From positions 1-33,241 of the IMG/VR virus record IMGVR_UViG_3300050015_000142: a DNA stretch of 33,241 nucleotides; one strand, written 5' to 3'. Positions 9,717 to 30,611 of this stretch are shown one piece after another. Below the pieces are notes generated by a model that was given only the letters and a program-made list of their open reading frames with translations, did not search any database and was not told where the DNA came from. Every line of letters begins with the position of its first letter. Positions within the stretch are counted from its first letter, which is position 1. The stretch is from a virus. A program made the translations under genes and the position numbers.

Positions 9717-9893
9717 ATGGACGCAACAGTAAATGCGGCACGCAAGGGAGCGGGCTTACCGCCAATGAGCAAACAGCAGCAGATGGATGAACTCAAAAAA
9801 CAGATGAAAGACCCGAAGTTGACCGACGCAGAACGCGCTGCAATTCAGAAGAAAATGGATGAGTTGATGAAAGAAATGAATAAAGGAAAGTAA
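9717..9893 (+). CDS. Small charged coiled-coil protein
   Basis: 58 residues from ATG 9717, preceded by AAGGAG. The sequence is almost entirely helix-forming and Lys/Met/Gln-rich (MSKQQQMDELKKQMKD, then QKKMDELMKEMNKGK). Its TAA shares a base with the ATG of the next gene (TAATG at 9891-9895), so translation is coupled. Placed between portal and minor capsid genes, it could be a small assembly chaperone or internal head protein. Not recognised. Confidence 0.6.
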   Translation: MDATVNAARKGAGLPPMSKQQQMDELKKQMKDPKLTDAERAAIQKKMDELMKEMNKGK

Positions 9894-10999
9894 TGCTTAC
9901 GGCGGCGCAGTTCGATTCTTTATCAACCCCGATTGTCGATCTCTACGAGACATACAATCAATCCGTAATTAACGATATTGCGCGGCGTCTTGTTAAATTA
10001 AACATGACAAGTACGGCGGCCTGGCAAATGCAACGGCTCACAGAGAGTGGGAAAGTCTACGAAAAGGCGCTGGAAGAATTATCCCGATTGACCGGAAAGA
10101 GTGAAGCAACTTTACGCAAACTGTTTGAGGATGCCGGTGTAAAAGCAATCCGTTTTGACGATGCAATCTATAAGGCGGCTGGACTTAATCCAATTCCCTT
10201 GAATCTATCGCCATCAATGTTGAATGTTCTTTTGGCGGGGCTGCGCAAAACAAATGCAGTCATGCGCAATCTAACTATGACCACCGCGCTGACTGGACAA
10301 CAGGCGTTTGTCAATGCGGCGGACTTGGCTTATATGCAAGTGTCGTCAGGTGCAATGAGTTATGACCAGGCAGTCCGGGCAGCAGTCAAGCAAGTGGCGG
10401 CAGATGGGTTATCGATGATCCAATACGGTGGGAAAGCTGACCAATTGGATGTGAGCATGAGGCGTACCGTTCTAACAGGGGTGGCCCAGACCACCGGCAA
10501 TCTTACAATGGCGCGGGCCGATGAAATGGGTACGGATCTGGTTCAGACAAGCGCACACGCGGGCGCACGACCCACCCATGAGGTATGGCAGGGCAAGGTA
10601 TTCAGTCGGTCGGGAACTAACCCCAAGTATCCAGACTTTGTGTCATCAACTGATTACGGGTCGGTCACTGGTTTATGTGGAATAAATTGTAGGCATTCAT
10701 TTTACCCATTCTTTGAGGGATTGTCCGAGAACGCCTACAGCCAGGAAGCCTTGAATAACGACTATAACGGTCAAACTGTTACTTACCAGGGAAATGAAAT
10801 CGACCAATATAAGGCATCACAGATACAACGGTCGATTGAAGTCAAGATCAGGGATTTCAAGCGCCAGGTAGGGGCGCTTGACGCAGCCGGGTTGGATAAT
10901 TCAGCGGAGACGGCCAAAGTTTCTGCATGGCAGGCGCAGATGCGTGACTTCATTCGTCAGACCGATTTGCAGCGGCAAAGGGTCAGGGAACAGATATGA
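9893..10999 (+). CDS. Phage minor capsid protein 2 (head morphogenesis)
   Basis: 368 residues. The C-terminal half shows the signature of the minor capsid protein 2 family: DLVQTSAHAGARPTHEVWQ, GKVFSRSG, then GLCGINCRHSFYPFFEG, which supplies a His/Cys cluster around the conserved arm. The N-terminal half is helical (IARRLVKLNMTSTAAWQMQRL), as in portal-associated head morphogenesis proteins. It is thought to sit inside or at the portal vertex during prohead assembly. The next gene on the + strand is more than 700 bases away, because an accessory island intervenes. Confidence 0.85.
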   Translation: MLTAAQFDSLSTPIVDLYETYNQSVINDIARRLVKLNMTSTAAWQMQRLTESGKVYEKALEELSRLTGKSEATLRKLFEDAGVKAIRFDDAIYKAAGLNPIPLNLSPSMLNVLLAGLRKTNAVMRNLTMTTALTGQQAFVNAADLAYMQVSSGAMSYDQAVRAAVKQVAADGLSMIQYGGKADQLDVSMRRTVLTGVAQTTGNLTMARADEMGTDLVQTSAHAGARPTHEVWQGKVFSRSGTNPKYPDFVSSTDYGSVTGLCGINCRHSFYPFFEGLSENAYSQEALNNDYNGQTVTYQGNEIDQYKASQIQRSIEVKIRDFKRQVGALDAAGLDNSAETAKVSAWQAQMRDFIRQTDLQRQRVREQI

Positions 11000-11001
11000 G
11001 A

Positions 11002-11397
11002 TTACAACAATCCCAGTACAACCTCGCGCATCTTCTCAGAGTTCTTTCCACTGATAATCGGTATTTCGCGCAATGTACCATCGGTGAGGGTTAACTCAAC
11101 GTGTCTGCCCCAACCTTTCAAGTTGATGCCAGTAATGTTCCTTATCAGGATATCCGATTTCTTGGGGAAGGCCAGAGCCATCGTGCCACCTCGTTTATCC
11201 ACGATGGAAATCCGGTTAGGGTATACCTCCAGGATGAACAAACCGAAGTTATTATATTTGAAAAGCGGGATCAATGGATCAGGCGGCTTTGGAATAGTTA
11301 TCACTGGCGGCTTGATGACTTCTTGCGGAGCGCCACAACTTGGGCATGTTTGGGCATCATCTTTCATTCCACGATTGCAATATCGACAGGTTTTCAT
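11002..11397 (-). CDS. Zinc-ribbon protein with PH-like domain, on reverse strand (moron)
   Basis: 131 residues. An N-terminal zinc ribbon uses C4-x2-C7 and C18-x2-C21 (CRYCNRGMKDDAQTCPSCGA). A proline-rich linker follows, then a beta-rich domain (ISIVDKRGGTMALAFPKK, ITGINLKGWGRHVELTLTDG, REIPI, SEKMREVVLGLL) resembling bacterial PH-like or SHOCT-associated folds. It lies opposite to all surrounding late genes, two bases from the end of the minor capsid gene, with its own AAAGGA site and a TATAAT box upstream. That is the layout of a moron: an autonomous gene expressed apart from the late operon, often a host-altering or exclusion factor. Function unknown. Confidence 0.75.
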   Translation of the reverse strand: MKTCRYCNRGMKDDAQTCPSCGAPQEVIKPPVITIPKPPDPLIPLFKYNNFGLFILEVYPNRISIVDKRGGTMALAFPKKSDILIRNITGINLKGWGRHVELTLTDGTLREIPIISGKNSEKMREVVLGLL

Positions 11398-11598: not shown

Positions 11599-11626
11599 TT
11601 GCATTATTTCACAAATGGTATATAAT
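11599..11626 (+). promoter_or_regulatory. Sigma70-type promoter upstream of structured leader and HNH gene
   Basis: TTGCAT (11599-11604), a 16-base spacer and a perfect TATAAT (11621-11626), with a TGG just ahead of the -10 region. Transcription would start near 11633 and run into the hairpin leader at 11644-11734. Confidence 0.6.
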
Positions 11627-11632
11627 AAGTGT

Positions 11633-11734
11633 GTTACAGCGTCATGCTTTCGGGCAGGGCGCGGCATAAACGAGTGGGACGTGAAAACGCCACGCTTTAC
11701 CAGATTAGAACCTGGCAGAGCGCGGCGTTTTTTT
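11633..11734 (+). ncRNA. Structured attenuator-like leader RNA upstream of endonuclease VII gene
   Basis: About 100 bases between the promoter and the HNH start fold into ordered elements. ATGC (11644-11647) can pair with GCAT (11664-11667). GTGG-GA-CGT (11674-11682) pairs with ACG-CCAC (11687-11693) around a GAAA tetraloop with a two-base bulge. Bases 11687-11703 pair with 11712-11728 as a 17-position stem with two A-C mismatches, followed by seven T. The second and third hairpins share 11687-11693 and exclude one another, as in attenuators and riboswitches. A 14-base direct repeat (11652-11665 and 11713-11726, 12 matches) could also exchange pairing partners. No known RNA family fits. Confidence 0.5.
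11687..11734 (+). terminator. Intrinsic terminator ahead of HNH gene
   Basis: The stem 11687-11703 with 11712-11728 has an 8-base loop and two A-C mismatches, and is followed by TTTTTTT (11728-11734). It stands 12 bases before the HNH start codon, so full-length transcription of that gene requires read-through. Confidence 0.7.
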
Positions 11735-11746
11735 GTTGAGGAGTAA

Positions 11747-12256
11747 ATGGAACAAACTCGAAGATGTAAGCGTTGTGGTCAAGAAAAAATACTAGACGAA
11801 TTTCAACCAGGGTCTTGGGACCCTGGGAATAAGGTGATATGTGCTGAATATCACAAGAATCCCCTGATTGAAATCCGTTGGTGTGTTTCCTGCCAAGAGA
11901 TGCCCCCCGTGTATCAATTGTCCGAAAAGGTAGATGTATCAACGCTGGAATCTAAGGGTAAGTATTTGAAGAGAACATACGAGATATCGCTTAAAAGATA
12001 CGAGGAATTATTCCAGGCTCAATTTGGAGTTTGTGCAATATGTCATAAACCCCCTACAGAAGAAAAGCCTTTTTTGGTTGTAGATCATGACCATGAAACT
12101 GGAAAAGTCAGAGGATTACTCTGCAACAAGTGCAACATGGCAATAGGATTATTTGATGACTTGACGGATAACTTACGCTCCGCAGTCAGATATTTGAACA
12201 CCAGTCATGCTGAAGACTTAAAAAACAGCAGTCCTGATGGCGGAGAGGCCATCTAA
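11747..12256 (+). CDS. HNH homing endonuclease, recombination endonuclease VII type
   Basis: 169 residues. The C-terminal half is the endonuclease VII fold: zinc ligands C96-x2-C99 and C126-x2-C129 flank VVDHDHETGKVRGLLC, with catalytic DHDH at 113-116. The N-terminal part is a zinc ribbon (C7-x2-C10, C46-x2-C49) replacing the usual basic helix. Such stand-alone genes are mobile and cut alleles lacking them. Ribosome site GAGGAG is close to the ATG. The gene is AT-rich compared with the scaffold gene next to it, and sits in an accessory island between minor capsid and scaffold. A relative lies at 30057-30611. Confidence 0.9.
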   Translation: MEQTRRCKRCGQEKILDEFQPGSWDPGNKVICAEYHKNPLIEIRWCVSCQEMPPVYQLSEKVDVSTLESKGKYLKRTYEISLKRYEELFQAQFGVCAICHKPPTEEKPFLVVDHDHETGKVRGLLCNKCNMAIGLFDDLTDNLRSAVRYLNTSHAEDLKNSSPDGGEAI

Positions 12257-12299
12257 AAGATTTTCTTTAGACAGCACGTATAGACAGGAGAACAGGATC

Positions 12300-12854
12300 A
12301 TGAACAAAAAGGAATTAGTTGCTCTCGGAGTTTCAGAAGAAGTTGCAGACCAGATCGTTGTTCTGCATGGTAAGGACATCGAATCGCATAAAGCGAAACT
12401 TGCCACAGCACAGGCTGAAGTTGACGGACTGAAAGGTCAGTTGACTGAGGCCGGGACCGCCATCGAGGGCTTCAAAAAGCTGGACGTGGAAGGCGTAAAG
12501 AAAAGCGCCGATGAGTGGAAGACCAAATACGACCAAGCAACTGCCGACGCCGTGAAACAGGTCTCCTCGCTCAAGTTCGATCATGCACTTGAAAGCGCCC
12601 TAACCGGCGCAAAAGTCAGGGATATGGTATCGGTCAAGGCCCATCTTAAGGCCGACGCGCTCAAGCTCAACGAGGACGGTTCAATCTTGGGCCTGAAAGA
12701 GCAACTCGATACACTCAAATCTTCAAAGGACTTCCTGTTCGAAAGCGACACACCCACCCCTAGGATCGTTTCTGGGGGGCAAAACAGATCAGTTCTTGGT
12801 GATTCGGTAGTAGACGCGGCTCGAAAGGCCGCAGGACTGCCACCCGCCAAATAA
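12300..12854 (+). CDS. Scaffold protein (phage GP20-like)
   Basis: 184 residues from ATG 12300, behind an AGGAG site; an ATG at 12237 in the same frame lies inside the HNH gene. The N-terminal half is a long charged coiled coil (SHKAKLATAQAEVDGLKGQL). The C-terminal half has the conserved pattern of the GP20 scaffold family: FDHALESALTGAKVRDMVSV, KADALKLNEDGSILGLKEQL, then KDFLFES. It directs prohead assembly of the major capsid protein, encoded immediately downstream, and is lost before packaging. Confidence 0.85.
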   Translation: MNKKELVALGVSEEVADQIVVLHGKDIESHKAKLATAQAEVDGLKGQLTEAGTAIEGFKKLDVEGVKKSADEWKTKYDQATADAVKQVSSLKFDHALESALTGAKVRDMVSVKAHLKADALKLNEDGSILGLKEQLDTLKSSKDFLFESDTPTPRIVSGGQNRSVLGDSVVDAARKAAGLPPAK

Positions 12855-12866
12855 GGAAAATAAGTA

Positions 12867-13745
12867 ATGGCAAACTCAATTGCTTTAGTTACCAAATTTA
12901 TGCCCATCCTGGATGAGGTTTACAAGGTTGCGTCCTTGACTGCTCGGATGGATTCTCCCACCAAACCCGTTAATTTTGGTGGGGCGAATGTCGTGGAAGT
13001 GTTTAAAACTTCCGTTGTTGGCCTAGGGACTTATTCCCGTGCGACCGGTTACCCTAAAGGCGACGTGACCGCTACATGGGAAGCGCTGACCCTGGCGGCT
13101 ACTCGTGGCCGTGAGTTCTCGATTGACCGCATGGATGATGAAGAGAGCCTGGGAATGGCTTTCGGCACCCTGGCGGGTGAGTTCATTCGCACCCAGGTGG
13201 CTCCCGAAATTGATGCCTACCGGTTCGCGAAGTACGCCTCTACGGCCAGTGTTCTTACCACCACCGGCGCTGTTCTGACCACCTCAACTGTTCTGGCCGC
13301 TCTCGATGCTGCAAATGCGGCAATGGATGCAGTAGAAGTTCCACCCGAAGGGCGTCTAATCTTTGTGTCCGGTCCCGTCAATCGGATGCTACGGGCTTCG
13401 ATCACCCGTATGCTGGGCAATGATGGCTCTGTAGATCGGCGCGTTCAGACCCTGGATACAAACTCTATTATCCCGGTGCCTCAGACTCGGTTCTATACGA
13501 CCTGCACGCTGGACGCTGGCAGTTCTACGTCCGCTGGCGGATATGCTAATGCTGGCAAGATCATCAACTTTATGATCATCCACCCCCCGGCTGTTATCCA
13601 GGCGACCAAACTCGCTCAGTTGAAAATCTTCGATCCTGAGATCAACCAGTCCATGGACGCCTACAAGCTCCAATACCGGATCTACCACGACGCGTTTGTC
13701 CTCGACAACCACGTCAACGGTGTTTACGTGCACACGACAACTTAA
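12867..13745 (+). CDS. Major capsid protein (HK97 fold)
   Basis: 292 residues, a usual length for a small HK97-fold capsid protein. It follows the scaffold gene. Features are an N-arm rich in hydrophobics (VTKFMPILDEVYKVASLTAR), an E-loop region (VVEVFKTSVVGLGTYSRATG), a spine-helix segment (SLGMAFGTLAGEFIRTQVAP) and an A-domain with GRLIFVSGPVNRMLRASI and IIHPPAVIQATKLAQLKIFD. No N-terminal protease-delta domain of its own is visible, consistent with a separate scaffold. It forms the hexamers and pentamers of the head. Confidence 0.88.
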   Translation: MANSIALVTKFMPILDEVYKVASLTARMDSPTKPVNFGGANVVEVFKTSVVGLGTYSRATGYPKGDVTATWEALTLAATRGREFSIDRMDDEESLGMAFGTLAGEFIRTQVAPEIDAYRFAKYASTASVLTTTGAVLTTSTVLAALDAANAAMDAVEVPPEGRLIFVSGPVNRMLRASITRMLGNDGSVDRRVQTLDTNSIIPVPQTRFYTTCTLDAGSSTSAGGYANAGKIINFMIIHPPAVIQATKLAQLKIFDPEINQSMDAYKLQYRIYHDAFVLDNHVNGVYVHTTT

Positions 13746-30056: not shown

Positions 30057-30611
30057 TCAGACCTCCTGTTTTTCGGGAACATTAAACGACGCGAATTCGC
30101 CGAATAATTTTCTGGCGGCGGCGTCGTAAGCAAGGGCAGCCTCGTTGGGAGTTAGGTAATCTATCATTTTTATTAAGATAGTTGTATTGTCGTTAACTAA
30201 TCCAAGCGCCACATTGCATCTCCGACAAAGTAGGCCGCGTATTTTCCCGGTCTTGTGGTCGTGGTCAACACACAGGTATCCTTTTAGCGAAGTTTCTGAA
30301 CTTCCGCAAGCAGCGCACAACCCACTCTGCTTTTCGAATAGGTCGTTATATTCGTCCTCTGTAATTCCGTAGTTTTTAGATAGGGCCAATTTTCGATCTC
30401 TGGTGTGCGTTTCGTTCGGGTGAGTTAGGCGATTTCTCTTTGCATAGTCCCTTGCACACTCACGCACTTTTTCTAGGTTGGCCACCCTATATTTTGCGCT
30501 TGCTATTCGACCGGTCTCTGGGTGTTCCAGGCGGTAAAGACGGTTATACTCTCGCTTATACTCCATACTTGATGCAGGATAATCGCTTTTAATTGCGTGT
30601 GTTTTTGGCAT
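30057..30611 (-). CDS. HNH homing endonuclease, recombination endonuclease VII type
   Basis: 184 residues. Residues 15-70 are a basic helix (EYKREYNRLYRLEHPETGR). The endonuclease VII core follows: LFEKQSGLCAACGSS (C99, C102), YLCVDHDHKTGKIRGLLC (DHDH at 116-119) and CRRCNVALGL (C129, C132). It is related to the gene at 11747-12256 over this core but not in the N-terminus. It is inserted in the early operon, with 37 non-coding bases upstream rather than the ATGA overlap typical of its neighbours, as expected for a late-arriving mobile gene. Confidence 0.9.
   Translation of the reverse strand: MPKTHAIKSDYPASSMEYKREYNRLYRLEHPETGRIASAKYRVANLEKVRECARDYAKRNRLTHPNETHTRDRKLALSKNYGITEDEYNDLFEKQSGLCAACGSSETSLKGYLCVDHDHKTGKIRGLLCRRCNVALGLVNDNTTILIKMIDYLTPNEAALAYDAAARKLFGEFASFNVPEKQEV

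Follow-up and report, generated by a model that had tools for sequence, protein, structure and literature searches.

A promoter followed within about 100 nt by a terminator, in the midst of the head genes of a tailed phage, raises the question of which genes the intervening RNA serves and whether it can act as a switch. The window studied here is the whole of a 33 kb (33,241 nt) tailed-phage virus record from IMG/VR, and a preliminary description of it had either placed the adjacent endonuclease gene under the control of the leader or taken the leader for a separate small RNA. Comparison with related phages points instead to the capsid genes. The leader is probably a cis-acting transcription attenuator of the phage capsid operon, which an endonuclease gene would have invaded at a later time.

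The locus and its promoter

The gene order in the window is portal, minor capsid (9893-10999), a minus-strand zinc-ribbon gene, the leader, an Endonuclease VII-type HNH gene, scaffold, and major capsid. The HNH gene (11747..12256, plus strand) encodes 169 aa and matches Pfam Endonuclease_7 with an E value of 6.9e-25. Behind it are the scaffold gene (12297..12854, plus strand; Pfam Phage_scaffold, E 3.3e-43), which is the likely regulated gene, and then the major capsid gene (12867-13745, plus strand; PHROG major head protein, E 2.1e-81). The small zinc-ribbon gene (11002-11397, minus strand), which separates the minor capsid gene from the leader, runs against the plus-strand head genes that surround it.

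The sequence upstream of the leader contains a candidate sigma-70-type promoter (11599..11626, plus strand), with its elements as first described: TTGCAT at 11599-11604, a 16-nt spacer, and TATAAT at 11621-11626. It has nine of twelve consensus matches and was passed over by a promoter site scan, TTGCAT matching TTGACA at only three of six positions. Promoter-like sites were no more frequent in that scan than in shuffled sequences. Among the 19 members of the RNA family described below, most have an exact TATAAT 7-16 nt 5' of the RNA, and the best promoter score averages 9.3 of 12, against 7.8 in shuffles.

Folds of the leader RNA

Covariance models R1 and R2 delimit an attenuator-like leader RNA of about 97 nt (11635..11731, plus strand), scoring 84 bits at the window leader, which was itself part of the training alignment. 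Minus-strand matches of the models, arising from the terminator palindrome, are weak (24 bits or less). Three helices can be drawn on the plus strand. P1, the 5' hairpin (11639..11662), consists of the stem GCGUC/GGCGC, a conserved A.G mismatch, the upper stem UGCU/GGCA and a UUCG loop. P2 (11672..11697), the predicted antiterminator hairpin, has a conserved GG/CC and one bulged A on each side. P3 (11687..11734), identified by folding and covariation, is an intrinsic terminator hairpin with seven T; its stem at 11687-11728 and the T run at 11728-11734, 12 nt 5' of the ATG at 11747, were found as previously noted. The 5' strand of P3 (11689-11697) is the 3' strand of P2.

Two elements of the preliminary description required revision. 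The hairpin with a GAAA loop exists, but not in the register GTGG/CCAC with a two-base bulge; the register that covaries pairs 11672-11678 and 11680 with 11689-11691 and 11693-11697, leaving A11679 and A11692 bulged. The 14-base direct repeat is likewise present (11652-11665 and 11713-11726, 12 of 14 matching), but the pairing switch proposed for it was discarded for want of conservation: the repeat occurs in the window alone, with at most seven matches in any other family member. A leader peptide was also rejected as a candidate, the short frame that begins at an ATG inside the window P1 not being kept; L037 and others have ACG there.

The 107-nt transcript has a folding energy of -44.6 kcal/mol, compared with -31.9 for shuffled sequences (z -3.84). 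For transcripts that end before the 3' strand of P3, the predicted fold is P1 together with P2 or a closely similar hairpin; for the full transcript it is P3. The overlap of P2 and P3 in the window alone is no better than chance (shuffle p 0.35). Since a hairpin overlapping a GC-rich terminator arm is expected by chance, a single sequence establishes no switch. P3 is the most stable fold and far more stable than P2, so that the unaided leader should mostly terminate, which counts against a switch.

A family of related leaders

A major capsid protein search of viral contigs gave 80 loci, several of which have the same leader directly 5' of the scaffold gene with no endonuclease in between. The family was widened by protein scans, DNA-pattern scans and covariance-model searches of the collected loci; a very permissive hairpin descriptor gave chance matches by the hundred, and the covariance models were used in its place. 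The leader RNA family now consists of 19 distinct sequences, the window and 18 other phage contigs. Two members that were absent from the training set were found by the model at the expected place (L215, 37.7 bits; L226, 33.4 bits), and three others, likewise absent from it, were found by DNA pattern and later scored about 77 bits with the model (L260, L263 and L266).

Covariation in the competing helices

P1 and P2 were evaluated together on A2, a plain MAFFT alignment of 14 sequences. In this alignment 94.9% of cells are paired, compared with 27-50% when the partner strand is slid, and 10 of 17 pairs have changes on both sides, against 5.3 expected from shuffling. P1 has nine pairs, with 94-96% of cells paired and both-side changes in five to six pairs. 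The eight pairs of P2 are 95.5% paired and have double changes in five pairs (nine cells), compared with 2.0 pairs (2.4 cells) in shuffles. For the P3 core, also of eight pairs, the corresponding figures are 96-97% paired and four pairs (six cells) with double changes, against 1.2 (1.3) expected, shuffle expectations here and throughout being ones that ignore relatedness and are not to be read as probabilities.

To reduce circularity, each competing helix was counted on a 19-sequence alignment fitted to the other two. On the alignment fitted to P1 and P3, P2 is 92.8% paired with nine double-change cells (2.1 expected), and on that fitted to P1 and P2, P3 is 97.4% paired, again with nine (2.3 expected). 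A tree made from the remaining columns, those of P2 and P3 being left out, places the double changes of P2 in five separate lineages (L035, L051, L057, L066 and L190). The common strand covaries with both of its partners; its change from CCACGCUU to CCAUGUCUU in L051 is accompanied by AAGAUAGG upstream, in P2, and by ACAUGG downstream, in P3. The pairing of P2 is in a shifted register in L011, L215 and L226, which counts against the switch.

The attenuator layout that had been proposed, of mutually exclusive hairpins and a terminator, is thus borne out by the homologues, in which compensatory changes keep both competing stems. The leader lies between a promoter and the gene it probably regulates, it ends in an intrinsic terminator, and it contains a conserved alternative helix that excludes the terminator helix, P2 and P3 sharing one strand and both covarying. 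Compensatory changes in P1, P2 and P3 argue that both exclusive folds are under selection, and the predicted switch architecture has strong comparative support. The most constant bases of the family include unpaired ones, namely ACAG before P1, the A.G mismatch in P1, AAC after P1, and GGAC with the bulged A of P2. Such constancy is as expected if the P1-P2 structure is recognized by something.

The endonuclease gene and the GP20-b-like element

Control of the endonuclease by the leader did not survive the comparison. The interval from the terminator to the next gene lacks the endonuclease in all 18 relatives that carry this RNA, and in 15 of them that next gene is a scaffold gene. A leader tied to the endonuclease was ruled out, since no other family member has that gene directly behind the terminator. 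The endonuclease gene seems to have entered later, 3' of the terminator and ahead of the GP20-b-like/scaffold region, as a passenger that may be co-regulated with the capsid genes by its position only. An endonuclease of 47% identity is found at this site in L087 too, on a contig that is too short to reach the leader position; the spot has therefore been occupied more than once or since an older event. The window contains a second Endonuclease VII-type gene (30057-30611, minus strand), which is 37% identical over 122 aa to that at 11747-12256 on the plus strand, and the L087 gene is a third relative.

In most relatives, an element that matches or resembles GP20-b (RF03003) lies between the terminator and the scaffold gene; it is above threshold in L051, L064 and L078. 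The window appears to have a diverged counterpart before its scaffold gene (12205..12290, plus strand), with a sub-threshold match at 12210-12258 (12 bits, against a cut-off of 36.2), which aligns with the element in L048, L051, L037 and others. The reading frame of the endonuclease ends inside this element. GP20-b RNA is a cis-regulatory candidate found before phage scaffold/GP20 genes and, like the new RNA, belongs to the leader 5' of the same scaffold genes, but it is a separate element 3' of the terminator and the two do not match. In L104, L260 and L263, moreover, the new RNA is present without a visible GP20-b-like element.

Downstream genes and genomic context

Of the 18 relatives, 15 have a Phage_scaffold-like gene 3' of the RNA, in most cases with a GP20-b-like element ahead of it. 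The corresponding gene in L104 is weakly scaffold-like (E 0.003). In the near-identical L260 and L263, the RNA is followed by a large gene of 826 and 740 codons, respectively, after portal, Mu-F-like and neck-type genes, and its position suggests a protease-capsid fusion. The L260 protein had no naming match among profiles, phage proteins or solved structures, and its single-sequence structure prediction had a mean pLDDT of 31.6. Comparison reveals a family that stands before apparent capsid-assembly genes, with both exclusive helices evidently under selection.

The slot itself is more widespread than the RNA. At 37 of 75 distinct scaffold loci, a -10-like box lies 20-150 nt 5' of a terminator before the scaffold gene, and other scaffold loci have TATAAT about 100 nt 5' of the gene and lack a terminator in the interval. 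Because the box is there even without a terminator, the promoter appears to serve the scaffold and capsid genes. Terminator-bearing loci outside the family have unrelated leader sequences, most without a clear antiterminator, and a regulated switch seems not to be universal among phages of this group. Different promoter-terminator leaders were seen in the same slot in L005, L013, L044, L050, L055, L061 and others, several of them beginning with AACTGAATAG or similar. In L084 and L086, the promoter-terminator slot 5' of the scaffold gene contains a short four-cysteine zinc-finger frame that resembles Com of phage Mu and has its apparent start within a few bases of the transcript start.

The closest capsid relatives in cellular assemblies are largely in Anaerolineales/Chloroflexi bins. 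The leader was not found in those genomes, apart from one weak match (G004, 24.2 bits) that on inspection looks like an ordinary terminator behind a cellular gene. A search of 396 genomes from the class to which the Leptolinea MAG belongs found no convincing copy of the leader, with two weak matches of 27.7 and 23.9 bits. An Anaerolineales/Chloroflexi host of the window phage is accordingly no more than a candidate.

Comparison with known RNA families

The supposition that the leader belongs to no known family held up: no Rfam family reaches threshold there. A search of the whole window at the gathering threshold found a tRNA only, matches to the leader region in E-value mode were at chance level, and in the loci of the relatives the leader was without any Rfam match. 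HEARO, the omega RNA of IscB-type HNH systems, has no Rfam match at the leader, and the HNH protein is an Endonuclease_7. GP20-b (RF03003) likewise has no match at the leader and lies downstream, at the scaffold gene. We found nothing relevant in the literature on a phage capsid attenuator. On comparative grounds, the leader is a new RNA family of the predicted attenuator type, tied to capsid-assembly genes.

With bacterial transcription attenuators and riboswitch expression platforms, the leader shares an exclusive antiterminator and terminator that use one common strand directly behind a promoter. It differs from them in its place in a phage head-gene operon, and no known aptamer, T-box, leader peptide or protein site was recognized in it. 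In lambda, pR'-tR' (6S RNA) with Q provides a promoter, a short leader and a terminator before the late genes, opened by antitermination. That arrangement resembles ours, but no Q-type site or protein was identified in the leader system, which appears to have a conserved RNA switch instead.

Proposed mechanism and alternatives

In the attenuator that we propose, RNA polymerase would start at the promoter and make P1 and then P2. While P2 persists, the 5' strand of the terminator would be held, and the scaffold and major capsid genes would be transcribed by read-through; displacement of P2 would let P3 form, and the transcript would end after about 100 nt. A probable docking site for a putative factor that tips this balance is formed by P1 and the conserved unpaired bases (ACAG, AAC, GGAC and the bulged A); a phage protein produced late in infection could, for instance, be that factor. 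As a later insertion between the terminator and the scaffold gene, the endonuclease gene would be under the switch by position only. The direction in which control works, its effector and its timing are what we infer from this arrangement. Expression of phage capsid genes has to come late and be abundant, and a conserved RNA switch at the start of the scaffold/capsid operon, if real, would mean that this timing does not rest on promoters alone. The leader, about 100 nt long, is a defined RNA, and it joins the uncharacterized GP20-b motif as a second conserved one. More speculatively, and with considerable doubt, we suggest that P1-P2 could represent a new class of phage RNA sensor. On recognizing a specific signal, which would be a phage late protein, a modified polymerase or a metabolite, it would control capsid synthesis from a sigma-70-type promoter, and would do so in phages whose head modules differ.

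The main rival, which we judge unlikely, is a stand-alone small RNA of about 100 nt with its own promoter and terminator, which would sit among the late genes like a noncoding moron and act in trans on targets of the host or the phage. A purely trans-acting terminated RNA needs no conserved P2 that is destroyed by its terminator, yet P3 is by far the stablest fold, the leader is a complete transcription unit, and the same slot in relatives holds unrelated promoter-terminator units, including that with the zinc-finger frame in L084/L086. Against this, the family always stands immediately 5' of genes in the capsid position, and many relatives have no terminator between the promoter and the scaffold gene that it drives. 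The unrelated leaders, mostly lacking an antiterminator, are the main reason that we leave some probability to a stand-alone terminated RNA or to protein-mediated antitermination.

Antitermination, which we consider a good deal less probable still, would involve a site acting on RNA polymerase, like put of phage HK022, or a phage-protein loading site, like that of lambda Q at pR'/tR'; P1-P2 would make polymerase ignore P3 and later terminators rather than merely compete with P3. To our knowledge, put stems do not double as a terminator arm; in the leader, P2 is in direct competition with P3. The put RNAs have two stem-loops and a length of about 70 nt, and putL lies just behind its promoter (PMC9378689). 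The leader is likewise a phage RNA in which P1 starts a few nt from the predicted 5' end and P1-P2 form a two-stem RNA of about 60 nt, within the 60-70 nt range of this comparison (PMC9378689), a likeness of layout only. P2 overlaps the terminator in the leader, and put is found in early operons, whereas the leader is at capsid genes. A strong terminator that only insulates the capsid genes, with incidental upstream hairpins, would fit the chance overlap expected in any single sequence with a GC-rich terminator arm (p 0.35 for the window), but it is very improbable, already weakened by covariation of P1 and P2 well above shuffled and slid controls and by the invariant unpaired bases.

Other features of the related contigs

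Two contigs that have the attenuator-like leader also contain other structured RNAs. A tRNA gene (L051:4080-4150, plus strand) lies directly 5' of the leader in L051. A type II hammerhead ribozyme, which scores 45.7 bits and so exceeds the Rfam threshold, is found in L266 (1027-1092, minus strand).
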